Source of the DNA: a virus
DNA: 25,970 bases
Direction: 5' to 3' (one strand)
IMG/VR virus record: IMGVR_UViG_3300034375_000894
Coordinates: 1 to 25,970 of that record
The notes below the pieces were generated by a model, which saw only the letters and a list, made by a program, of their open reading frames with translations, searched no databases and was not told the origin of the DNA. The position numbers and the translations under genes were made by a program. Position 1 is the first letter of the stretch; every line of letters starts with the position of its first letter. This document shows, piece after piece, positions 2,922 to 25,669 of this stretch.

Positions 2922-3143
2922 ATGAAATTATCAGATTGGATCAAAGAGAATAAATTAAGTTATTCTCAAGCCGCCAATAAATTTGGCATCATTAATATAA
3001 ATCCTGCCACCAATGTTCAACGCTACGCCAAAGGTGAAAGGATACCACACCCTAAAGTAATGTTAAAAATATTTAAGGCAACAAATAAAAAAGTACAACC
3101 TAATGATTTCTATGAAGAATACTGGCAAAGAGAAGAAGTTTAA
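2922..3143 (+). CDS. Cro/CI-like helix-turn-helix regulator
   Basis: The 73-residue protein matches the lambda-repressor-like HTH layout. MKLSDWIKENKLSYSQAANK gives helices 1-2, FGI-x-NPATNVQRYAKGER (about 21-40) is the recognition region, and IPHPKVMLKIFKAT (41-54) gives the following helix, ending with VQPNDFYEEY as in many phage Cro-like proteins. GAAAGGAG lies just upstream of the ATG. It is the first gene of the rightward early operon and sits next to a divergent promoter pair. It probably controls the early switch by binding the AACCTTTATGGT-type sites. The target is inferred; the fold is well supported. Confidence 0.85.
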   Translation: MKLSDWIKENKLSYSQAANKFGIININPATNVQRYAKGERIPHPKVMLKIFKATNKKVQPNDFYEEYWQREEV

Positions 3144-3384: not shown

Positions 3385-3578
3385 CAAACTCTAAAATATT
3401 TGATGAGATTGGATGTCCTGATGATTTAAAGGAATGTAATAGAGAACTTAAACGAGCCAAGAAATATATCAAAAAGCAATCAGATATAATTTTTGCTCTT
3501 GAAAAAGAAATACAATTAAACAATTATGAAATAAAAACACTAAAGGAAAGGTCTAAAAATGAAAGAGGAAAACAATAA
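3381..3578 (+). CDS. Small coiled-coil hypothetical protein
   Basis: The 65-residue product has an N-terminal IFDEIGCPDDLKECNRELK segment and then a continuous charged helix with heptad-like spacing (about residues 17-58), probably a short coiled coil. Its ATG overlaps the previous stop (ATGA) and is preceded by GAGG; its end overlaps the next gene by 20 bases. The position in the early operon suggests a takeover or replication accessory role, but nothing identifies it. Confidence 0.7.
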   Translation: MTNSKIFDEIGCPDDLKECNRELKRAKKYIKKQSDIIFALEKEIQLNNYEIKTLKERSKNERGKQ

Positions 3579-4284
3579 AGAATATGTATATTTTATTAAG
3601 TTAAATCCAAATATTAATACAGGATATAATCAATATAACTATGTTAAAATTGGTAAAAGTAACTCTATTGATGGAATTAAAAGAAGAATATCTAGTTTAC
3701 AAGTAGGATCTCCATTTAAACTTAACTTCTTAGGTTATCTTGAAGGATCGGAAAAATATTTTCACGATTACTTTCATGCTTGTAGAGTACAGGGGGAATG
3801 GTTTATTTATGATACGATAGCAGAAAAAATTAAGTCATACAATTTATGTAAATTTGATAAACCTATAAAAGAAAAAAGTTATATTCCTCTTGATATAAGT
3901 ATAAGAAAAACATTTAACAACGATCAATTAGTTCGCTTTATAAGTAGATCATTAAAAAGATTATTTGTTTTATATGATGTTGAATGTAAGCGTAGAAAAG
4001 AAATAACAGATGATTATTTTGGTTCTACAATAAATGCGGGTGACAGATATTTTAACATTAAAGATGAGCCTTATCAATGGAATGGAATTAAATTAACTAT
4101 TTCTAATGCTTATAAAATATACTGTATATTTAAGAGCATGATATATATGCGTAATACCAAATTTTATTACGATAAAAGACATCTTCATGTTGAAGATTCT
4201 TTGAATGAACTAAAAAAAAATTGGAGTAAAGATTTTCAATCTGTTATATTTGATGAAAAAACTAATGAGGTAATCAATGGCTAG
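3559..4284 (+). CDS. T5orf172/GIY-YIG-type domain protein
   Basis: Residues about 9-85 match the T5orf172 (MUG113-related) branch of the GIY-YIG superfamily. EYVYFIK corresponds to the GIY strand, YVKIGKS (28-34) to the YIG strand, KRRISSLQVGSP supplies the conserved Arg helix, and EKYFHDYFHACRVQGEWF gives the H-x-x-F and GEWF segments. Members are putative nucleases or DNA-binding domains of phages. The C-terminal part (90-241), rich in aromatic and basic residues, is not recognised. The start overlaps the preceding gene by 20 bases and follows AAAGGAAAGG. Base composition is even more AT-rich than in the neighbouring genes, which may indicate separate acquisition. Confidence 0.7.
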   Translation: MKEENNKEYVYFIKLNPNINTGYNQYNYVKIGKSNSIDGIKRRISSLQVGSPFKLNFLGYLEGSEKYFHDYFHACRVQGEWFIYDTIAEKIKSYNLCKFDKPIKEKSYIPLDISIRKTFNNDQLVRFISRSLKRLFVLYDVECKRRKEITDDYFGSTINAGDRYFNIKDEPYQWNGIKLTISNAYKIYCIFKSMIYMRNTKFYYDKRHLHVEDSLNELKKNWSKDFQSVIFDEKTNEVING

Positions 4285-4657
4285 ATGGACCTACGCATTT
4301 AGCAATGGGAAATATAACGATTGGCACAGACAACACCCAAATTTGGCTGGTATTGATATAGATTTTATTGAAGTTTGTCCCCACTGCCTAGAACCTTTGG
4401 CAGTTAAGGAGACTTGCTATGACAAGGGACAGAAATGGAAAGCTACAACGCTTACAAAGAGGGTCGCAGAGGCTCTTAGAGTACCCGGATTTTTAGTTTT
4501 CTATACTCCTTTGGGGGTTGATATGAAATTTAGGATCAAACGTATTACAGAGCCTGTGAGTGAGATATATGAGATGACTTCAGACCAATGGTTAGCTTAT
4601 TTATATGAGCTACATAAGGAACATAGGAGGTGTTGCAAAGATGCAACAGAAGTATGA
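4277..4657 (+). CDS. CxxC protein, possible PD-(D/E)XK-like nuclease
   Basis: The 126-residue protein begins MARWTYAFSNGKYNDWHRQH. The core reads GIDIDFIEVCPHCLEPLAVKE (about 25-45), followed by a conserved-looking YDKGQKWKATT and a hydrophobic strand FLVFYTP. The D-x-D-x-x-E-x-C-x-x-C-x-E-P-L-x-x-x-E arrangement resembles a small nuclease core with a zinc knuckle (Cys34, Cys37). I have seen similar proteins in phage genomes without a function. GAGG precedes the ATG, and the start overlaps the upstream gene by 8 bases. The nuclease idea is inference from the acidic pattern only. Confidence 0.7.
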   Translation: MARWTYAFSNGKYNDWHRQHPNLAGIDIDFIEVCPHCLEPLAVKETCYDKGQKWKATTLTKRVAEALRVPGFLVFYTPLGVDMKFRIKRITEPVSEIYEMTSDQWLAYLYELHKEHRRCCKDATEV

Positions 4658-5351
4658 GCCTCACATAAGGGTTAAGTTCTCGCTATTTGATAGTCCCCAG
4701 TTTAGAAACATTCCAAACAAGCACCGAGCTTACTGCTATTTGGTATTCATTTGTTTGCTAAAGTTCGCTAACTCTAAAACGCTGACTTGTTACCCACGCC
4801 AAGCCACCCTATCTAATATGACAGGTCTTAGTCGAAGCACTATATTTAGGACCACTGAATTGTTAGAGAGATCAAAAATTATTACAAAAAAACGCCAGAA
4901 GTCTACAACATTATATACCATTAATAAAGATCATGTTGTGTCTACAAGAAACTATGATGTGTCTACAGGACACATGGGTAGTGTCTACAGGACTAATATT
5001 AGTAGAACTATCATTAAACAAACTAACATTAATAACTATATAAAAGTTTTGGCAGAAGGTGGTAGCGATAAAGATACAATCTTAACAAAGTTAGCGTCTA
5101 AGTTTACAGTTCAAGAACTCAATGATGCTATCAAGGATAATGATAACCCTTATCTATGTAAACAGGCTTTACAAATAAAGGACCAAGAACAAGTGAAGTA
5201 TGTCTCAAAAGATGTTATAAATAAGGCGGTAGATGATGTCCGAAAAAAGACAAACTACTTTTATAAAGATAAGGTATACAAGAATAAGAGGGATCATGGC
5301 AGGATTTCAGCAACGAAAAGTTTTTTGTCAAAGTTTGACAAGAAGAAGTAA
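4641..5351 (+). CDS. Winged-helix replication-initiator-like protein
   Basis: I start it at ATG 4641 because AGGAGG (4625-4630) lies 10 bases upstream; a longer frame from 4605 has no such site. Residues about 20-95 form a winged helix of the HTH_36 type. CYPRQATLSNMTGLSRSTIF (50-69) is the HTH, RTTELLERSKIITKKRQKST is the recognition helix and wing, and LYTI is the final strand. Such proteins in phage early operons often initiate replication or regulate it. The middle, residues 85-118, is encoded by four GTCTACA repeats (see separate entry). The C-terminal third is lysine-rich and helical. The role as initiator is inferred; no helicase loader is seen next to it. Confidence 0.65.
   Translation: MQQKYEPHIRVKFSLFDSPQFRNIPNKHRAYCYLVFICLLKFANSKTLTCYPRQATLSNMTGLSRSTIFRTTELLERSKIITKKRQKSTTLYTINKDHVVSTRNYDVSTGHMGSVYRTNISRTIIKQTNINNYIKVLAEGGSDKDTILTKLASKFTVQELNDAIKDNDNPYLCKQALQIKDQEQVKYVSKDVINKAVDDVRKKTNYFYKDKVYKNKRDHGRISATKSFLSKFDKKK
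4899..4993 (+). repeat. Four GTCTACA direct repeats inside the winged-helix gene
   Basis: GTCTACA occurs at 4901, 4940, 4961 and 4983, giving intervals of 39, 21 and 22 bases. The last three extend to GTGTCTACARGA; copy 4959-4973 is also a dyad, GTGTC-TACAG-GACAC. The first three share one codon phase (coding for Ser-Thr), but the fourth is in another phase and codes for Val-Tyr-Arg. The conservation is therefore at the DNA level and not a protein repeat. Origins inside initiator genes are known from lambda O. Origin function here is inferred. Confidence 0.55.
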
Positions 5352-5718
5352 AAGACCATGCCAAGCAAAAGGATACCCAACTGCCAATGGTAAATATTTA
5401 TGTAGGTTTCATGGCGGTAATAATATAAAAGGATTTAACCAAAAGAACTATACTGATGACACAAGAATCAAAGCACTCTCAAAGCTCAAACAATTCAGAG
5501 ACAAGTCAAGAGAAGAAGTTGAACAATACTATTACAAAGAAGTCAAACCTAGAATTGGAACTACAGAAAGAAGTAGATACTATAGAAAATATGCTTATGC
5601 GAGGCGTAACTCTTTCAGAAATTTTAGAGGACAAAAAACTCTCTGTCTCACAGATGAGCTTACAAAAGTTCTATGCAATCTTAAAGAAAGACAAAGAACT
5701 CAATCACAAAATAGTTGA
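5296..5718 (+). CDS. HGG-motif Cys/His protein next to terminase small subunit
   Basis: The start is placed at ATG 5296, preceded by a GAGGG stretch; longer versions run into the winged-helix gene. Residues 1-45 read MAGFQQRKVFCQSLTRRSKR onwards, with Cys11, Cys22, Cys37 and His39, and the signature CRFHGG-x-x-x-x-G. This short family is common beside phage terminase genes and probably binds zinc; its function is unknown. The chain from about residue 55 (TDDTRIKALSKLKQFRDKS) still looks natural, but beyond about residue 85 it shares DNA with the terminase small subunit frame. The downstream half may be weakly constrained, or the true end may involve a frameshift. Confidence 0.6.
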   Translation: MAGFQQRKVFCQSLTRRSKRPCQAKGYPTANGKYLCRFHGGNNIKGFNQKNYTDDTRIKALSKLKQFRDKSREEVEQYYYKEVKPRIGTTERSRYYRKYAYARRNSFRNFRGQKTLCLTDELTKVLCNLKERQRTQSQNS

Positions 5719-5989
5719 AGCTAGAAAAATTGGTATCCAAACTTTAATTGATAAGTTGCTACAAATATTTCAGTATCAAGAAATTGAAAATCCTAATCAA
5801 ATCTTATGGGTGAGGGAAAAAACAAAGTTTATTACTTACCTAGCAGGAAAGCTGACCGATCTTTATTCTGACAATAAACCGATAAAGCAGAATATAGATC
5901 AGAAAATTTCTGTTTCGTGGCAAGATAGTCCCGATCTGATTGACTTAGACGCAGAAGAAGTTGTCGATAAAACAAACCCCTCGCCATAA
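5456..5989 (+). CDS. terS: Terminase small subunit-like protein
   Basis: Residues about 40-140 have the helical pattern of phage terminase small subunits. IENMLMRGVTLSEILEDKKL is the DNA-recognition helix-turn-helix region, followed by SLQKFYAILKKDKELNHKIV, IGIQTLIDKLLQIFQY, and WVREKTKFITYLAGKLTDLY, equivalent to the R-x-x-x-R-K-W-x-x-x-K-x-x-P-x-x-Y region. It would select viral DNA and load the large subunit encoded 2.5 kb downstream. The N-terminus is uncertain. ATG 5456 has no Shine-Dalgarno and gives a Ser/Asn/Lys-rich lead; TTG 5519 or ATG 5591 could be the real start. The 263-base overlap with the preceding gene is unusually long. Confidence 0.65.
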   Translation: MTQESKHSQSSNNSETSQEKKLNNTITKKSNLELELQKEVDTIENMLMRGVTLSEILEDKKLSVSQMSLQKFYAILKKDKELNHKIVEARKIGIQTLIDKLLQIFQYQEIENPNQILWVREKTKFITYLAGKLTDLYSDNKPIKQNIDQKISVSWQDSPDLIDLDAEEVVDKTNPSP

Positions 5990-6178: not shown

Positions 6179-6388
6179 TTATTCATGTTTAATAAACTCC
6201 ACAGTTATTTTGCATTTACCATGTTCTCTAAAATTAACTGTATCATCATAGGTGTCTATTAATTCGCATAATCTTTTTAAGATTATACCATCATCGCTAT
6301 GAACATGAGTTAATATTTGGTTCTTTTTTTCTTTGTTACCCTCGTACTTAGTACCAATGGTAACTATCTCGTAGCTATCTATATACAT
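6179..6388 (-). CDS. Hypothetical 69-residue protein downstream of the repeat array
   Basis: Begins MYIDSYEIVTIGTKYEGNKE; the pattern of alternating hydrophobics, a Lys-rich turn, the helix IILKRLCELIDTYDDT and a closing strand CKITVEFIKHE suggests a small alpha/beta fold. AAGG lies 9 bases before the ATG, and the leader contains AAACAACTA twice. It has its own predicted promoter at 6423-6452, with the repeat array immediately upstream. It is therefore the gene most likely controlled by that array. Function unknown. Confidence 0.7.
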   Translation of the reverse strand: MYIDSYEIVTIGTKYEGNKEKKNQILTHVHSDDGIILKRLCELIDTYDDTVNFREHGKCKITVEFIKHE

Positions 6389-6422
6389 AGTTGTTTACCT
6401 TTAGTTGTTTCCTTTCATAATT

Positions 6423-6452
6423 ATAATATAACCATAAAGGTTAATATGTCAA
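6423..6452 (-). promoter_or_regulatory. Strong predicted leftward promoter with operator core
   Basis: On the minus strand a consensus TTGACA (6452-6447) is followed by an 18-base spacer and TATTAT (6428-6423). The spacer contains AACCTTTATGGT (6442-6431), identical to the site in the promoter of the HTH regulator gene. It lies 36-65 bases upstream of the start codon at 6388, and the seven-copy repeat array begins 11 bases upstream of its -35 box. Confidence 0.6.
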
Positions 6453-6463
6453 TAGTATTTTTA

Positions 6464-6609
6464 GGTTGATTGTCTCAAAGTTTTAGTTGCTTATATCAAA
6501 CTTTAGGTTGCTTATATCAAAGTTGTGGTTGCTTATCTCGAATAAGTTTTGGTTGATTGTCTCAAAAATCATGGTTGATTGTCTCTAATTTTTGGTTGCT
6601 TATCTCAAA
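6464..6609 (+). repeat. Seven-copy iteron-like array, about 21-bp period
   Basis: A 16-base unit with consensus GGTTGMTTRTMTCAAA starts at 6464, 6485, 6506, 6527, 6551, 6573 and 6594, giving steps of 21, 21, 21, 24, 22 and 21 bases. That is close to two helical turns, so the copies fall on nearly the same DNA face. Two versions occur: GATTGTCTC (copies 1, 5, 6) and GCTTATMTC (copies 2, 3, 4, 7). Each unit is a loose dyad, TTGM-N5-TCAA. Stops occur in the reading frames checked on both strands, so it is non-coding. Candidate roles are initiator iterons or an activator array for the adjacent promoter. Confidence 0.85.
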
Positions 6610-6613
6610 AAAA

Positions 6614-6778
6614 TTATTTTATTTCTTGTCCTTGTTTATTAAATGATTTGTTTATATTTGGGACATATAAAAAACCATTGTCTTTTAGTTGCTTCAACAT
6701 ATTATTAAACCATATATTATTAATATTATGTTGATATGGTTTAAGATTTTTATAGTATTTTTGCGACCATTGGACCAT
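6614..6778 (-). CDS. Hypothetical 54-residue protein (YYKNLKPYQHNINN type)
   Basis: From ATG 6778 the frame encodes MVQWSQKYYKNLKPYQHNIN and continues with NIWFNNMLKQLKDNGFLYVP and NKSFNKQGQEIK, ending at TAA 6614-6616. The dense pattern of aromatic and Asn/Lys residues looks like a real conserved small helical protein. I have an impression of similar sequences in pelagiphage-like genomes but cannot confirm it. It follows the previous gene after one base, has no Shine-Dalgarno, and is the last gene before the repeat array. Confidence 0.6.
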   Translation of the reverse strand: MVQWSQKYYKNLKPYQHNINNIWFNNMLKQLKDNGFLYVPNINKSFNKQGQEIK

Positions 6779-6779
6779 A

Positions 6780-6881
6780 TTAAAACAATATAACGCCTAA
6801 TAAAAAACCAATTAAAAAACACTGGTATTCATGGCGGTAGTAAAGCTCATAAAATTTAAGATCCTTTAAAAATTTATTCAT
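6780..6881 (-). CDS. Tiny single-pass membrane protein, 33 residues
   Basis: The frame ATG 6881 to TAA 6780 encodes MNKFLKDLKFYELYYRHEYQ followed by CFLIGFLLGVILF. The last 13 residues are a hydrophobic membrane segment ending at the stop codon, giving an N-in, tail-anchored or holin-accessory-like layout. It overlaps the preceding gene's stop by 8 bases and is followed after one base by the next gene. The gene is very short, so the call rests on packing and the clean membrane segment. Confidence 0.5.
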   Translation of the reverse strand: MNKFLKDLKFYELYYRHEYQCFLIGFLLGVILF

Positions 6882-7020
6882 TTTTTAATTGCTTCAGGTA
6901 TTGTCTAAATAATTTCATGGCTTCTCTTTTAGTATAAAAATAATATACTTGCTTGATCCAGTAACCCTTAACGATGTCAGTTATTAAATAGCTACCATTT
7001 AATTGTTTTGTTACAATCAT
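6874..7020 (-). CDS. Hypothetical 48-residue protein
   Basis: From ATG 7020 it reads MIVTKQLNGSYLITDIVKGY and continues WIKQVYYFYTKREAMKLFRQYLK. The layout is two short beta strands, then an aromatic strand and a basic helix. That resembles the minimal domains in which a host-reading strand pair is followed by a KREA helix, as in AP2-like or Arc-type small phage proteins, but no assignment is possible. The start overlaps the previous gene in an ATGA arrangement, and GGGGG lies upstream. Confidence 0.65.
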   Translation of the reverse strand: MIVTKQLNGSYLITDIVKGYWIKQVYYFYTKREAMKLFRQYLKQLKNE

Positions 7021-7169
7021 TTATAAACCCCCAATAAATTAGATAAAATATAAGGTGTTATTTTTTTTGGTATTGGTAGTCTATATTTGAGCCAGTCGGT
7101 CCAGTATTGTTTGGTCCTATATATTTTTATAATTGGTACTTGATATAAATTGATATTGTCTTTTTTCAT
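7017..7169 (-). CDS. Hypothetical 50-residue protein, first gene of leftward cassette
   Basis: ATG 7169 is preceded by GAGAGG. The product MKKDNINLYQVPIIKIYRTK continues QYWTDWLKYRLPIPKKITPY and ends in a hydrophobic stretch. It is basic and aromatic-rich, with no recognised family. It is the first gene after the divergent promoter region and has AAACAACTA in its leader (7190-7182, read leftward). Confidence 0.6.
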   Translation of the reverse strand: MKKDNINLYQVPIIKIYRTKQYWTDWLKYRLPIPKKITPYILSNLLGVYK

Positions 7170-7199
7170 ATTACCTCTCATTAGTTGTTTTAATATACA

Positions 7200-7297
7200 T
7201 AGACATTATGGCTATATATACTATGGTCAATAATGTCGCACTTATCATATTTATAATAGACATTTTGGCTATATAGTTATAAAAGTTTAAATGTCAA
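7200..7297. promoter_or_regulatory. Divergent promoter region built from an 18-bp direct repeat
   Basis: AGACATTATGGCTATATA (7201-7218) recurs with one change at 7258-7275. Each copy begins a rightward promoter-like pair: TAGACA 7200-7205 with TATGGT 7222-7227, and TAGACA 7257-7262 with TATAAA 7278-7283. Leftward pairs overlap them: TTGACC 7230-7225 with TAATGT 7208-7203, and TTGACA 7297-7292 with TATATA 7275-7270. The arrangement would let one regulator control both the small-gene cassette and the 7331 gene. The repeat includes TTWTGGCTATA, related to the TTTATGGTTATA part of the 6423-6452 promoter. Confidence 0.55.
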
Positions 7298-7330
7298 TTA
7301 TGACAAAAACAACTAACAAAGAAGGTAAAC

Positions 7331-7924
7331 ATGACACCAATAAGAAAAGATGAGAAGGAACATTTATTGTCAGTGTGCAATAAGAAGTTTAACGCTAGAG
7401 AGCAATCTATATCTTATGAAATTCAAAGAGATGCTCAAGAGTTAAGCGACAAAAAAAAGAGTTCTTTTCAAAAATTAATTAAAGTTGATAAAAAAATGAC
7501 AGCTTTAATTGAAGCAGAAAAGAAATACAAAAAGCATATCCAAAATAAAGACGCTATAGAAAAAAAATTACTTGAGGATGTGTCCAAAAAAGCTAAAGAA
7601 GTTCAGGAACATTTAGAGAGGGTTAATAATGTTCGTAAATGGGGACGAGATTTTAGCGATTATAGGACCAATTATATAGATGATCCTGCAAGCGGTGATT
7701 TTATAGCTAATTTAAACAAATGTTGTTATGAGGAATCACTACAACATGTAAGTGATAACCATAAATTAAAAGCACATCTTGAGGACATGAGAGATCAAGT
7801 AATTATGACTATTAATAGCGGTCTTGCATTGGCTACAACTCAAGCAGAAGTAAAAAAAATATATAATGAAGCGGGTATAGATTACTATCTACCTCAAGCA
7901 TTATTACAGTTACCATCTAAATAA
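7331..7924 (+). CDS. Hypothetical coiled-coil early protein, 197 residues
   Basis: The protein begins MTPIRKDEKEHLLSVCNKKF. Residues about 20-100 are almost entirely charged helix (a probable coiled coil), followed by a compact region with WGRDFSDYRTNYIDD (about 104-118) and LNKCCYEES, then a helix and a short conserved-looking tail, KIYNEAGIDYYLPQALL. I recall similar proteins from marine phages, always without function. AAGG lies 5 bases before the ATG. It is a one-gene transcription unit with its own promoter region (7200-7297) and a strong terminator right after it, which points to a product needed at independent dosage. Confidence 0.75.
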   Translation: MTPIRKDEKEHLLSVCNKKFNAREQSISYEIQRDAQELSDKKKSSFQKLIKVDKKMTALIEAEKKYKKHIQNKDAIEKKLLEDVSKKAKEVQEHLERVNNVRKWGRDFSDYRTNYIDDPASGDFIANLNKCCYEESLQHVSDNHKLKAHLEDMRDQVIMTINSGLALATTQAEVKKIYNEAGIDYYLPQALLQLPSK

Positions 7925-8463: not shown

Positions 8464-9735
8464 ATGGATATTAAAATACCTTATACACCTCGTAAGCATC
8501 AAGCCTACATTCATAAACAAATAGATAAACACAGATGGAATGTATTAGTTTGTCATAGAAGATTTGGCAAAACTGTGGCAGTTCTAAATCATTTGATTAG
8601 ATCAGCTTTAACTTCTAAGAACAAGAACCCTAGGTATGCCTATATATCACCTACCTTCAAACAATCAAAAGCTATTGCTTGGGATTATATAAAACAGTTC
8701 ACCGCCAAAATACCCCACACTAAATTCAACGAAACAGAACTGAGAGTTGATTTACCAAATGGCTCTCGTATCACCTTGCTAGGCTCAGAAAACTCAGATG
8801 GCTTGAGGGGTATATACCTTGATGGTTGTGTGATTGACGAGTATGCAAATGTAAATGAAAAACTATTTCCTGAGATTATCAGACCAGCACTATCCGACAG
8901 AAAGGGGTACTGTGTTTTTATTGGGACTCCGCAAGGAATGAATAATAATTTTTATGATTTATACCAACATGCACAAGGTGCGGATGATTGGTTTCACTAT
9001 AAAGCTAAAGCTAGCGATACGAAAATTGTTGACCAAGAGGAACTAGACAAAGCGAAAGAGGTAATGGGTGAGAAGAAATACCTGCAAGAGTTTGAGTGTG
9101 ATTGGATCGCAAACATCGAAGGTGCTATCTATGGTGATGAGATTGCAAAACTAGATAACAAACGACAGATAACTAGAGTGCCATACGATCCTAGTTTACC
9201 AGTTTCGACAAGTTGGGATTTGGGTGTTTCAGATCATAGTTCAATTATATTCTTTCAACAACTAGGTAGAGCAATCAATATTATCGACTACCATGAAGAA
9301 AGAGGTCAAGGATTACCGCACTATATTCAGATGATAAAGGAAAAGGATTATATCTACAAAGATCACTTTGCGCCACACGACATCGAAGTTACAGATTTTA
9401 GTAATGGCAAGACCCGGAGAGAGGTCGCCTATCAATTAGGAATTAGGTTTAAAGTCGTGCCAAAAATTCCACTCGAAGATGGCATCCACGCAACGACAAT
9501 GATCTTGCCTAGATGTTGGATTGATGTAGACCATTGCAAAAACTTAATAGATGCGTTAAGACATTACCACAGGAAGTATATTGACAAAAACAGAATGTTT
9601 AGGTCAAAGCCTGTACACGATTGGAGTTCACACGCTTGCGATGCCATGAGGTATCTAGCTGTTGGATTACAAGAAATAAATGATAGACAAATTGCTCCAC
9701 AAAGTGTAGCAGATAATGAATACAGGATTATATAA
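8464..9735 (+). CDS. terL: Terminase large subunit
   Basis: This 423-residue DNA-packaging motor subunit has both domains. The ATPase shows the Walker A-like CHRRFGKT (30-37), the Walker B CVIDEYA with catalytic Asp125-Glu126, and the coupling motif FIGTPQG (152-158). The RNase H-like nuclease shows SWDLGVSDHSS (Asp252, Asp257), an IIDYHEE strand with Asp275, and the final HDWSSHACDAMRYLA with Asp393. It cleaves and translocates viral DNA into the prohead through the portal. Length is on the short side for the family but all motifs are present. No Shine-Dalgarno; probably coupled to the 8269 gene. Confidence 0.95.
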   Translation: MDIKIPYTPRKHQAYIHKQIDKHRWNVLVCHRRFGKTVAVLNHLIRSALTSKNKNPRYAYISPTFKQSKAIAWDYIKQFTAKIPHTKFNETELRVDLPNGSRITLLGSENSDGLRGIYLDGCVIDEYANVNEKLFPEIIRPALSDRKGYCVFIGTPQGMNNNFYDLYQHAQGADDWFHYKAKASDTKIVDQEELDKAKEVMGEKKYLQEFECDWIANIEGAIYGDEIAKLDNKRQITRVPYDPSLPVSTSWDLGVSDHSSIIFFQQLGRAINIIDYHEERGQGLPHYIQMIKEKDYIYKDHFAPHDIEVTDFSNGKTRREVAYQLGIRFKVVPKIPLEDGIHATTMILPRCWIDVDHCKNLIDALRHYHRKYIDKNRMFRSKPVHDWSSHACDAMRYLAVGLQEINDRQIAPQSVADNEYRII

Positions 9736-10413: not shown

Positions 10414-10833
10414 ATGGGAGCAACTGGACCAAGCACAGGACCAGCAGGACAAACAGGAACAACTGTTGTTGCAGGGAAAACATTACCTACCTATGGAACT
10501 AAAGAGGATGCGGAAAAAGAAAGAAAAAGAAATGAATCTAAAAAAAGATTAAAAGAAGCAGAAGAACAAAATAGATTAAATAGAGGTAGTGGAGGAGATA
10601 CAGATCCAAAACCAATTATTGTTAAAGAAGATGTTGATGAGACAAAAGAAGAAACTACTCAAGAAGAAATAATAGAAGATGAAGAAAAAGAAGATGAAGA
10701 AAAAGAATCTGAAGATAAAGAATATGATGCTAGAAGAACAAAAAGAAGAGGTAGAAGAATGACAATACTTACTTCACCAACTGGAACTGGTCAAGGTCTT
10801 GTATTGGGTAAACCAACTTTATTAGGTGCATAA
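10414..10833 (+). CDS. Acidic low-complexity protein with RRGRxMTILT motif
   Basis: The 139-residue protein opens with a Gly/Thr/Pro-rich segment (MGATGPSTGPAGQTGTTVVA), has a charged helix (30-55), then a strongly acidic stretch of Glu and Asp (about 70-105). It ends with RRGRRMTILTSPTG (111-124) and PTLLGA. The final block parallels that of the 9738 gene. The acidic stretch could mimic DNA or bind the basic partner proteins encoded just before it. The stop overlaps the portal start by one base. Probably a head-assembly or virion component; this is inferred from position. Confidence 0.65.
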   Translation: MGATGPSTGPAGQTGTTVVAGKTLPTYGTKEDAEKERKRNESKKRLKEAEEQNRLNRGSGGDTDPKPIIVKEDVDETKEETTQEEIIEDEEKEDEEKESEDKEYDARRTKRRGRRMTILTSPTGTGQGLVLGKPTLLGA

Positions 10834-24286: not shown

Positions 24287-25669
24287 ATGACAGTATCTAC
24301 AACGATAATAAAATCATCTCATAATGGTAATGGTTCAACCACAACCTTTGCCTACAATTTCAAAATTTTTGCGGACACAGACTTAGTAGTAATTATAAGA
24401 TCAGCAGCAGGAACTGAGACAACTAAAACTTTAACAACTCACTATACAGTAGCAGGTGCAGGTGATGCTTCGGGTGGAAGCATAACTTTTACTGCTGGTA
24501 ATATACCAGTAACAGGTGAGACAGTTGTTATAAGAAGGAATGTCCCGCAAACTCAAGCGATAGATTATATCGCTAATGATCCATTCCCTGCGGAGACTAA
24601 TGAAGAGGGTCTGGATCGTACTACTATGATTGCACAGCAAGTATCTGAAGCAACAGATAGATCCATAAAACTTTCAAGAACAAACACGATGACATCTACA
24701 GAATTTACTGTAGGTGCAACAGATAGAGCTAATAAAATTTTAGCATTTGATAGTGCTGGAGAAATTTCAGTAACACAAGAATTAGGAACTTATCAAGGCA
24801 CAGATGCTACTGTAACCACAGAGGCATACAGTGTTAGAGATATAATTAAATCAACAACCACTGCTGAACTTAACAATGTTTACATTTGTGTAGCAGATTC
24901 AGTTGTTGGAGATAGTTTAACAGACACAGATCATTTTGAATTATTGGTAGACGCTGTATCTGCTGCAACCAGTGCCACAGCCGCAGCTAGTTCAGCAAGT
25001 GCTGCATCCACTAGCGCATCTGCTGCCGCAACATCTGCTACAAACGCTGCTAACTCAGCATCCACTGCTACAACAAAAGCAAGCGAAGCATCTACTTCTG
25101 CAACCAATGCAGCATCTTCTGCATCAACAGCGTCAACACAAGCTACTAACGCTGCTAGTTCTGCAACGAGTGCTGCCAGTTCAGCTACAACAGCGACTAC
25201 TAAAGCAAGTGAAGCTAGTACCTCTGCAACCAATGCCGCTTCTTCAGCAACTGCTGCAGCAAGTTCTGCAACAACAGCTACAACAAAAGCATCAGAGGCT
25301 GCAACATCAGCTACTAATGCTGCATCTAGTGCAACAACTGCATCAACTCAAGCATCAAACGCATCGACTTCAGCAAGTAACGCTGCAACAAGTGCTACTG
25401 CTGCCGACACAGCTAAAACTGCTGCACAAACTGCTCAAGCCGCTGCCGAAGCAGCAGCTGATAATTTTGACGATACTTATTTAGGAGCTAAATCTAGTGA
25501 TCCTACAGTAGATAATGATGGGGATGCACTAACTGCAGGAGATTTATATTTTAATACAACATCAAATGTATTAAAAGTTTATAATGGTTCATCTTGGCAA
25601 TTAGCTGCTGTAGATGCAACTGGTTTAGCAAGTAATGGATTTGCTATTGCAATGGCGATAGCTTTATAA
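24287..25669 (+). CDS. Tail fibre protein with T7-type N-terminal domain
   Basis: Residues 1-150 match the T7 tail-fibre attachment domain: FAYNFKIFADTDLVVIIRSA (about 20-39), LTTHYTVAGAGDASGGSITF, VVIRRNVPQTQAIDYIANDP and FPAETNEEGLDRTTMIAQQV. A region with YICVADSVVGDS follows, then a long Ala/Ser/Thr heptad repeat (about 225-390), expected to form a trimeric helical shaft. The end is a small module, YLGAKSSDPTVDNDGDALTA to VYNGSSWQ, and the protein stops soon after (AIAMAIAL). There is no large receptor-binding tip, so it may serve as an adaptor for other tip proteins encoded further downstream. Confidence 0.88.
   Translation: MTVSTTIIKSSHNGNGSTTTFAYNFKIFADTDLVVIIRSAAGTETTKTLTTHYTVAGAGDASGGSITFTAGNIPVTGETVVIRRNVPQTQAIDYIANDPFPAETNEEGLDRTTMIAQQVSEATDRSIKLSRTNTMTSTEFTVGATDRANKILAFDSAGEISVTQELGTYQGTDATVTTEAYSVRDIIKSTTTAELNNVYICVADSVVGDSLTDTDHFELLVDAVSAATSATAAASSASAASTSASAAATSATNAANSASTATTKASEASTSATNAASSASTASTQATNAASSATSAASSATTATTKASEASTSATNAASSATAAASSATTATTKASEAATSATNAASSATTASTQASNASTSASNAATSATAADTAKTAAQTAQAAAEAAADNFDDTYLGAKSSDPTVDNDGDALTAGDLYFNTTSNVLKVYNGSSWQLAAVDATGLASNGFAIAMAIAL
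24959..25460 (+). repeat. Heptad-coding Ala/Ser/Thr repeat within the fibre gene
   Basis: A stretch of about 500 bases codes for seven-residue units of Ala, Ser, Thr and Asn. The block TTKASEA-STSATNA-ASS recurs three times, 42 and then 28 residues apart, both multiples of seven. Codons vary between copies, so the protein period rather than the DNA is kept. The low-complexity DNA also opens long false frames on both strands. Confidence 0.85.

Follow-up and report, generated by a model that had tools for sequence, protein, structure and literature searches.

A repeat array beside a leftward promoter appears to be an exchangeable cassette in HTVC010P-type pelagiphages

An array of seven repeats in a virus genome lies between a leftward promoter and a 54-aa gene, and comparison with related phages suggests that it behaves as an exchangeable cassette: the promoter and the gene on either side appear to stay in place while the array between them changes. 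The sequence examined is the 25,970-base virus record IMGVR_UViG_3300034375_000894, called the window throughout. The array occupies 6464–6609 on the plus strand, and relatives carry arrays with other units that were sorted with it into sets A–D. We favor, with somewhat less than even confidence, the explanation that this is a swappable upstream regulatory array that acts on the promoter (P_L) or on read-through, with a binder encoded by none of the neighboring genes. It is unusual for the unit at one locus to be exchanged as a whole when none of the genes examined encodes a regulator that covaries with it.

A 12-kb query from the window matched 20 phage records, every one from Pelagibacter phages, including HTVC010P. 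Judged by these matches, the window is an HTVC010P-type pelagiphage that infects abundant ocean bacteria. Pelagiphages are called ubiquitous and highly abundant in the abstract of PMC10504331. The isolate genomes measure 33.6–36.1 kb, of which the window would cover about three quarters, so the gene for an array binder may lie beyond it. The large terminase subunit is encoded at 8464–9735 (PHROG-type family match). The N-terminal part of a DnaA-domain-IV-like homologue, truncated at the contig end, lies at 3–164 on the minus strand and is 87% identical to the HTVC034P protein. All seven isolate DnaA-like proteins tested match Bac_DnaA_C, and none matches an AAA+ family. The cumulative GC-skew minimum falls at 3052 and not at the array, in a skew that is confounded by gene direction.

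The 16-bp units of the array (GGTTGMTTRTMTCAAA) start at 6464, 6485, 6506, 6527, 6551, 6573, and 6594, which gives steps of 21, 21, 21, 24, 22, and 21 bp. The consensus is exact in four of the seven units and carries one mismatch in three. An earlier note on this DNA had described seven repeats at 21–24-base steps, and this description was borne out: seven units chain at 19–27-bp steps in the window, compared to at most three in 300 order-2 Markov windows (253 gave two and 47 gave three). The same note had distinguished two unit variants, whereas three were found: ATTGTCTC, CTTATATC, and CTTATCTC. Elsewhere in the window there are two three-mismatch matches to the unit, which is the chance level (shuffle mean 2.78). 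The cores are alike, with a mean pairwise identity of 0.85, compared to 0.36 for the 5 nt that follow and 0.58 for the 5 nt that precede them. Conserved cores with variable linkers have the look of a binding-site set and support the regulatory reading. A 5-nt inverted repeat is present in only two of the seven units. The array had been placed in a non-coding gap; this stands in that no listed ORF of at least 40 aa spans it, but two TTG-start ORFs (6317–6469 and 6579–6734) overlap its ends.

The proposal that the units share one face of the helix is doubtful. At 10.5 bp per turn, units 1–4 are in register but the last three are rotated by 3–4 bp (R 0.47, p ~0.21); an assumed 11-bp period gives R 0.87. 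Five related arrays, with steps of 23–25, 23–25, 14–16 plus 23, 24–25, and 23–24 bp, gave R values of 0.18–0.31 at 10.5 bp and 0.10–0.59 at 11 bp, and show little sign of same-face phasing. Activity at the RNA level, as a sponge, an antitoxin-like RNA, or a terminator, would suit a location just behind the 3′ end of the leftward gene at 6614, and repeat RNAs can be set-specific, as in type III antitoxins. The array has no RNA structure in excess of shuffled sequences (z −0.28 and +1.36), an Rfam search of it gave no match at E 0.5, and set B matches set A best in the opposite direction. We regard an RNA element as highly improbable. The absence of structure beyond shuffles and of an Rfam match makes DNA the likelier active form.

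P_L lies at 6425–6452 on the minus strand, with a perfect −35 box (TTGACA, 6447–6452) and a −10 box of TATATT (6425–6430). The first unit of the array is 11 bases from this consensus −35, as had been noted. A palindromic operator-like sequence, AACCATAAAGGTT, lies inside P_L at 6430–6442. An AACC-N5-GGT-type near copy of this operator is found at 2884–2896, upstream of the gene for an HTH_3-like regulator (2922–3143, plus strand) that scores below the Pfam cut-off and is conserved where the set A, B, and D contigs reach. This protein is a candidate ligand of the AACC-N5-GGTT operator. The first product encoded behind P_L has 69 aa (6179–6388, minus strand), and the first gene behind P_L varies even among arrays that belong to one set.

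The 54-aa gene at 6614–6778 (minus strand) abuts the array with its end and is found beside each array seen. Homologues of its product occur in cyanophage P-TIM68, marine virus AG-345-O18, and three contigs (L210–L212), where no array was detected. A blastn search of 6400–7330 against the phage collection matched two entries of the cyanophage P-TIM68 genome, in the 6614 gene only. The next gene considered, at 7331–7924 on the plus strand, encodes a 197-aa predicted all-helical protein that is present in all array-bearing contigs reaching that far. It has distant relatives in other phages and falls into two allele groups that do not match the array set. Its predicted structure had no PDB match at E 0.001 or better. 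A search of this family found 126 relatives; 80 loci were taken and 44 were scanned for repeats, and the array was present only in the twin contig of the window. Other loci have GCTTG-type repeats, coding repeats, or, in L173, AGTGACAAT-like repeats. In six loci with distant homologues (L128, L144, L156, L170, L171, and L173), GCTTG-containing repeat runs were seen, some at ~14-bp steps. Six proteins had no match in NCBIfam, and PADLOC gave one weak match among five proteins, of the 7331 protein to ZorA (E 0.0057). Two near-identical, nearly palindromic sequences, TAGACATTWTGGCTATATA, were found by eye at 7200–7218 and 7258–7276, 58 bp apart and upstream of the 7331 gene.

Relatives were collected through the replication protein Rep and through P_L. 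Of 87 loci from a search of viral contigs with Rep, 80 were retained, and 52 of these have at least 1800 nt downstream of Rep. An array was detected in eight of these 52, one being the twin contig, and the shorter L019 is a ninth. None was detected in the other 44 by scans that require several similar units. The array of L022, with three units, fell below the four-unit threshold and was found through the promoter scan, and other short arrays may have been missed. That scan located the exact 25-base promoter-operator pattern in 10 contig stretches, all of them with an array that begins 11–26 bp from the −35 box. The distance from the first unit to the −35 box is 11–14 bp in sets A, B, and D and 26 bp in set C. 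A looser P_L match was found in six of the 52 Rep loci, again with an array in all six.

Set A (GGTTGMTTRTMTCAAA) consists of the window with seven units, its twin L102, and L105 with six. Set B (AAAAGTGACAATCGGTA) is found in L019 (four units) and L022 (three units), set C (TTATCCAA) in L031, L100, and L101 with steps mostly of 14–16 bp, and set D (TCTAATTTATTATTTCGTTGA) in L028, L068, L035, L038, and L039 with steps of about 24 bp. Arrays of all sets abut a 6614-type gene and have P_L on the other side, except in L028 and L068, whose array regions are alike and which carry a set-D array without P_L. P_L, the array, and the 6614-type gene are all absent from the array-less relatives L023 and L036, and no array was detected in the ten isolates scanned. 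The earlier note had suggested looking in relatives for an array whose unit differs at the corresponding position, and the outcome is positive, with sets B–D at the set-A spot. The sets share little: permutation of shared cores gave p 0.005 for A–B (uncorrected, six pairs), 0.040 for A–C, and 0.045 for C–D, and values above 0.38 for the remaining three pairs. Core lengths and steps also differ, from 16-bp cores at 21–24 bp to 8-bp cores at 14–16 bp. The pairwise core similarity is too low to argue for a common motif or a single binder of all four sets.

Similar repeats were sought elsewhere. In viral contigs, paired set-A units were found only in the twin contig and L105; they also occur in four bacterial genome contigs, of which L264 was inspected. 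There, a 21-bp tandem repeat of Chryseobacterium (1200–1360) contains the set-A 13-mer GAGACAATCAACC, which is taken as chance. Weak irregular four-copy repeats in L014, L016, L036, L095, and L040 and at 10622 and 25155 of the window were rejected, being off the array spot or having no clear unit; L014 and L016 were read directly. Repeats (GCATCTTCTGCATCAA and others) were also seen within the tail-fiber gene at 25112–25331. Runs of TTATCCAA occur in unrelated contigs, some in open frames and some not, and runs of AGTGACAAT elsewhere are few and mixed. Among 12 contigs with such runs, none matched DnaA_C and one matched HTH_36, below the cut-off. Many TTATCCAA and TTGGATAA repeats are found in L215, L216, and L222, partly at 15–16-bp steps and with no open frame across them; they resemble set C, and no DnaA_C match was found in these contigs.

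Pairwise identities were determined segment by segment, the 6614 side being the adjoining 200 nt. Within set A, the window and L105 are 99% identical in the array, 85% on the 6614 side, and 75% in the DNA further on, and they are non-homologous (43%) on the far side of P_L. In set C, L031 and L101 are 99% identical in the array versus 94% on the 6614 side. In set D, the array of L035/L038 is 84% identical versus 70% on the 6614 side, both values are 98% for L038/L039, and L028/L035, compared in the array alone, are 93% identical. In set B, the arrays of L019/L022 are 90% identical and their flanks 95–96% (95% on the 6614 side). The array is thus better conserved than the neighboring gene side in three of five within-set pairs. 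Five between-set pairs are 47–57% identical in the array, taken as the level of unrelated AT-rich DNA, and 73–88% identical on the 6614 side. The far side of P_L is 90% identical for window/L019 and non-homologous (52–61%) in the other four pairs, and the 25-base P_L pattern is kept even in between-set pairs with a non-homologous far side. High identity within sets and 47–57% identity between sets, despite a homologous 6614 side, are the basis for describing the array as an exchangeable cassette. Only window/L019 shows replacement between two homologous wider flanks; since the other four pairs are non-homologous beyond P_L, the exchange may sometimes involve more than the array. Replacement of a block at one site between conserved neighbors suggests that the sequence of a non-coding element is under selection.

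A neutral minisatellite, formed by tandem duplication at a fragile spot and without function, could account for the variation in unit number (seven in the window and six in L105; four in L019 and three in L022) and for units that differ between sets. It does not account for linkers that differ while cores are kept, for arrays that exceed the neighboring gene side in identity in three of five same-set pairs, or for an array in all 10 P_L stretches, and we consider it improbable. Replacement at one site with the neighboring DNA kept would also fit an arms race. The repeats could be a DNA decoy or a self/non-self tag that titrates or disarms a sequence-specific DNA-binding protein belonging to the host, to a prophage, or to a competing phage. 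Such an opponent would be a foreign initiator or a defense protein, and each of the four sets would be directed at a different one. The arrays without P_L in L028 and L068 are consistent with this, and there are precedents in three papers: ectopic lambda origins arrest lambda (PMC4488673), the DNA-based aba element has cognate specificity (PMC8585504), and satellite origins are exchanged under nuclease attack (PMC8263062). No opponent was found, however; pairs of set-A units occur only in the twin, L105, and the four bacterial contigs (with L264 attributed to chance), and a decoy leaves the so far constant pairing of P_L with an array unexplained. A decoy or tag is rather unlikely. That the array is a hypervariable non-coding repeat cassette, exchanged at a fixed site in a pelagiphage arms race as an allele-specific binding platform, is unlikely as well but carries some weight; its target would be a defense protein or the initiator or regulator of a competitor, and not the phage's own replication protein.

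The rep gene bears on whether the array is a replication origin. The ORF is listed at 4605–5351 (plus strand), and the start at 4641 given for this winged-helix gene in the earlier note is a possible internal start. The product is a Rep-like replication initiator or helicase loader with a winged helix (residues ~38–106), a linker (115–139), and a helical C-terminal part (141–231). It matches PHROG replication-initiation and DnaD-like helicase-loader families. The predicted structure has a mean pLDDT of 70.9 and a pTM of 0.41, and the linker (115–139) is of low confidence. Foldseek matched initiator domains 4pt7, 4pql, and 5kbj at E 0.002–0.02, with 4pt7 and 4pql best (0.002–0.0035); ordinary winged-helix regulators are close behind (E 0.005–0.03), and the best matches lie above the 0.001 level. 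A family profile of Rep had no match among solved structures at E 0.01. Upstream of rep, 3559–4284 encodes a 241-aa protein with a MUG113 domain, which we take to be of the GIY-YIG type, and is possibly an accessory nuclease. This protein had no match in 23 loci, several of which stop short of the region, and one weak partial match in the phage collection.

The rep gene contains three repeats of its own, GTGTCTACARGA, at 4935–4996 (plus strand) with 21- and 22-bp steps, which are candidate origin iterons. The middle copy is a perfect palindrome, ATGTGTC-N5-GACACAT. An 83% AT stretch follows directly (4997–5050, plus strand) and is a candidate unwinding element; the three most AT-rich 54-nt windows of the gene begin at 4995–4997. 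Twenty-eight of 84 rep genes, many of them closely related, were searched for three copies at 20–23-bp steps and compared to 40 codon shuffles. The best three-copy repeat is at residues 97–117 in 23 of the 28 genes. It exceeds all 40 shuffles at residues 97–117 in 14 genes and elsewhere in two, and does not exceed them in 12. The window repeat scores 36 of 42, compared to a shuffle maximum of 28. By reading, GTGTC-type repeats accompany set A (window), set B (L019 and L022), set C (L031), and set D (L028 and L035), and a second type accompanies set D in L038 and L039; the repeat type changes between Rep clades. One repeat type with sets A–D, and set D with two repeat types, suggest that the array and the initiator are uncoupled in both directions.

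An array of iterons bound by the phage initiator would fit directly oriented repeats in a non-coding gap 1.1 kb from rep. Several findings oppose this origin. Phased repeats and, directly after them, the most AT-rich stretch of the gene lie within rep itself, one in-gene repeat type is found with sets A–D and set D also with another, the set-A unit is unlike both the in-gene repeats (p 0.28) and the DnaA box (p 0.57), and 44 of the 52 Rep loci with at least 1800 nt downstream have no detected array. We consider it very unlikely that the array is the origin. The earlier proposal of initiator iterons is not supported, as the unit does not change with the Rep repeat type. The likely origin moves from the array to the rep gene, where 4935–5050 is a candidate with a lambda-O-like layout: mid-gene iterons after the DNA-binding domain and an adjoining AT-rich stretch. 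The lambda origin lies in the middle of gene O, where passages of PMC7466680 describe iterons that are imperfect 19-bp inverted repeats with an AT-rich region beside them. A lambda-like helicase loader is reported for this phage type in passages of the Skadi paper (PMC10504331).

Proteins that could bind the array were sought by covariation of 24 window genes with 23 relatives, together with pairwise identities and ORF comparisons. The winged-helix protein had been named as the best candidate; this is not supported, since it is Rep-like and its own in-gene repeats are uncoupled from the set. Rep is an unlikely binder because its in-gene repeats keep one type across sets A–D. The small terminase subunit (TerS) homologue at 5456–5989 (plus strand) is Sf6-like, just below the Pfam cut-off, and its gene ends 475 bp from the array. 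A packaging (pac) site bound by TerS would fit this distance and the headful packaging proposed for related Skadi phages in passages of PMC10504331. TerS was rejected as set-following: it is 92–96% identical to that of the window in the set B and C loci and in L028 and L035, where the units are unlike, and 76–77% identical in L038 and L039, these four all being set D. Isolates without a detected array also have TerS, and a pac site is hardly credible.

The DnaA-domain-IV-like gene that begins in the window raises the possibility that the units are DnaA-box-like sites for its product. For comparison of the sets, we took the E. coli DnaA box to be TTATCCACA-like. Set C (TTATCCAAA) is one base from this box, and none of 300 permutations was as good, but sets A, B, and D are unlike it (p 0.57, 0.57, and 0.78). 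The QDHTT motif is invariant in seven isolate DnaA-like proteins, and between L028 and L038, which both belong to set D, protein identity is only 49% in a comparison limited to that set. The DnaA-like proteins of viral contigs were picked by a QDHTT-like motif, which makes motif sharing uninformative, and this filter yielded nothing for four of 10 loci. A DnaA-like gene is present in isolates where no array was detected. DnaA-box-like sites are highly improbable.

The remaining candidates behave similarly. The HTH protein is 84–97% identical where the set B and D contigs reach, and the set-C contigs stop short of it. The 7331 protein was rejected because sets C and D occur in both of its allele groups, and the 6614 protein because it does not split by set. 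For the 7331 protein and the homologues of 4277, 8269, and 9738, the L028 and L038 versions resemble each other more than they resemble the window version. Also closer between these two are a 93-aa ORF beyond the left end of the window, which has no comparison in sets A–C, and some small or overlapping ORFs. Where the sets could be compared, none of the Rep, TerS, HTH, 6614, 7331, and DnaA-like proteins changes in step with the array set. The binder is presumably a host protein or the product of a phage gene outside the stretches examined.

In the regulatory explanation that we favor, the array would be a multi-site cis-regulatory element directly upstream of the −35 box of a portable P_L with its AACC-N5-GGTT operator. 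The unit would be recognized by a sequence-specific DNA-binding factor that sets P_L activity; alternatively, the bound factor would block read-through from the leftward genes behind the array. The array would pass between phages as a block of ~100–175 bp, with the four unlike sets A–D segregating at one site. A DNA-binding platform is favored because the array keeps its place beside P_L, its cores resemble binding sites, and it has no RNA structure beyond that of shuffles; we infer that the array binds protein and affects transcription. Several observations argue against this reading. L028 and L068 have an array without P_L, no binder was found among the genes examined, and the differences in step and core length from set to set are not explained by one binding geometry. 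Conservation within sets is also uneven, with L038/L039 equal in array and flank and L019/L022 lower in the array than in the flanks. The earlier suggestion of an upstream activator array is supported in part, in that an array accompanies P_L in 10 of 10 stretches, but the link is not absolute, as L028 and L068 show. According to passages of PMC10504331, a related phage of the HTVC010P type lacks an RNA polymerase gene of its own, and the array may bear on how such phages time their genes.

Direct-repeat arrays next to promoters are common, an example being the OmpR sites before ompF. The present array shares with OmpR-type arrays several ~20-bp direct sites by the −35 box of a sigma-70-type promoter, but differs in that relatives exchange the whole unit at one locus, while none of the genes examined encodes a regulator that covaries with it. 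Mycobacteriophage stoperators are asymmetric short sites in many group-specific copies; they are scattered through the genome and follow the repressor, whereas the units here form one array. Among the matches listed from open-licence full texts, none describes this array, and passages of PMC11598899 and PMC12753301 say nothing on it. Compared to the lambdoid origin iterons in passages of PMC7466680, the likeness is with 4935–5050 of the rep gene, which has repeated sites and adjoining AT-rich DNA; the 6464–6609 array is outside rep, its unit is independent of Rep, and two of its seven units have inverted repeats. The aba anti-BstA element is also short phage DNA with an allele-specific effect, and its repeats are required; according to passages of PMC8585504, it is a 63-bp element with a 6-bp repeat at its ends that overlaps the bstA gene. 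PLE satellite replicons likewise exchange repeat-bearing non-coding DNA as a module. According to passages of PMC8263062, the initiator domain covaries with the origin there, whereas here Rep stays alike while the array changes.
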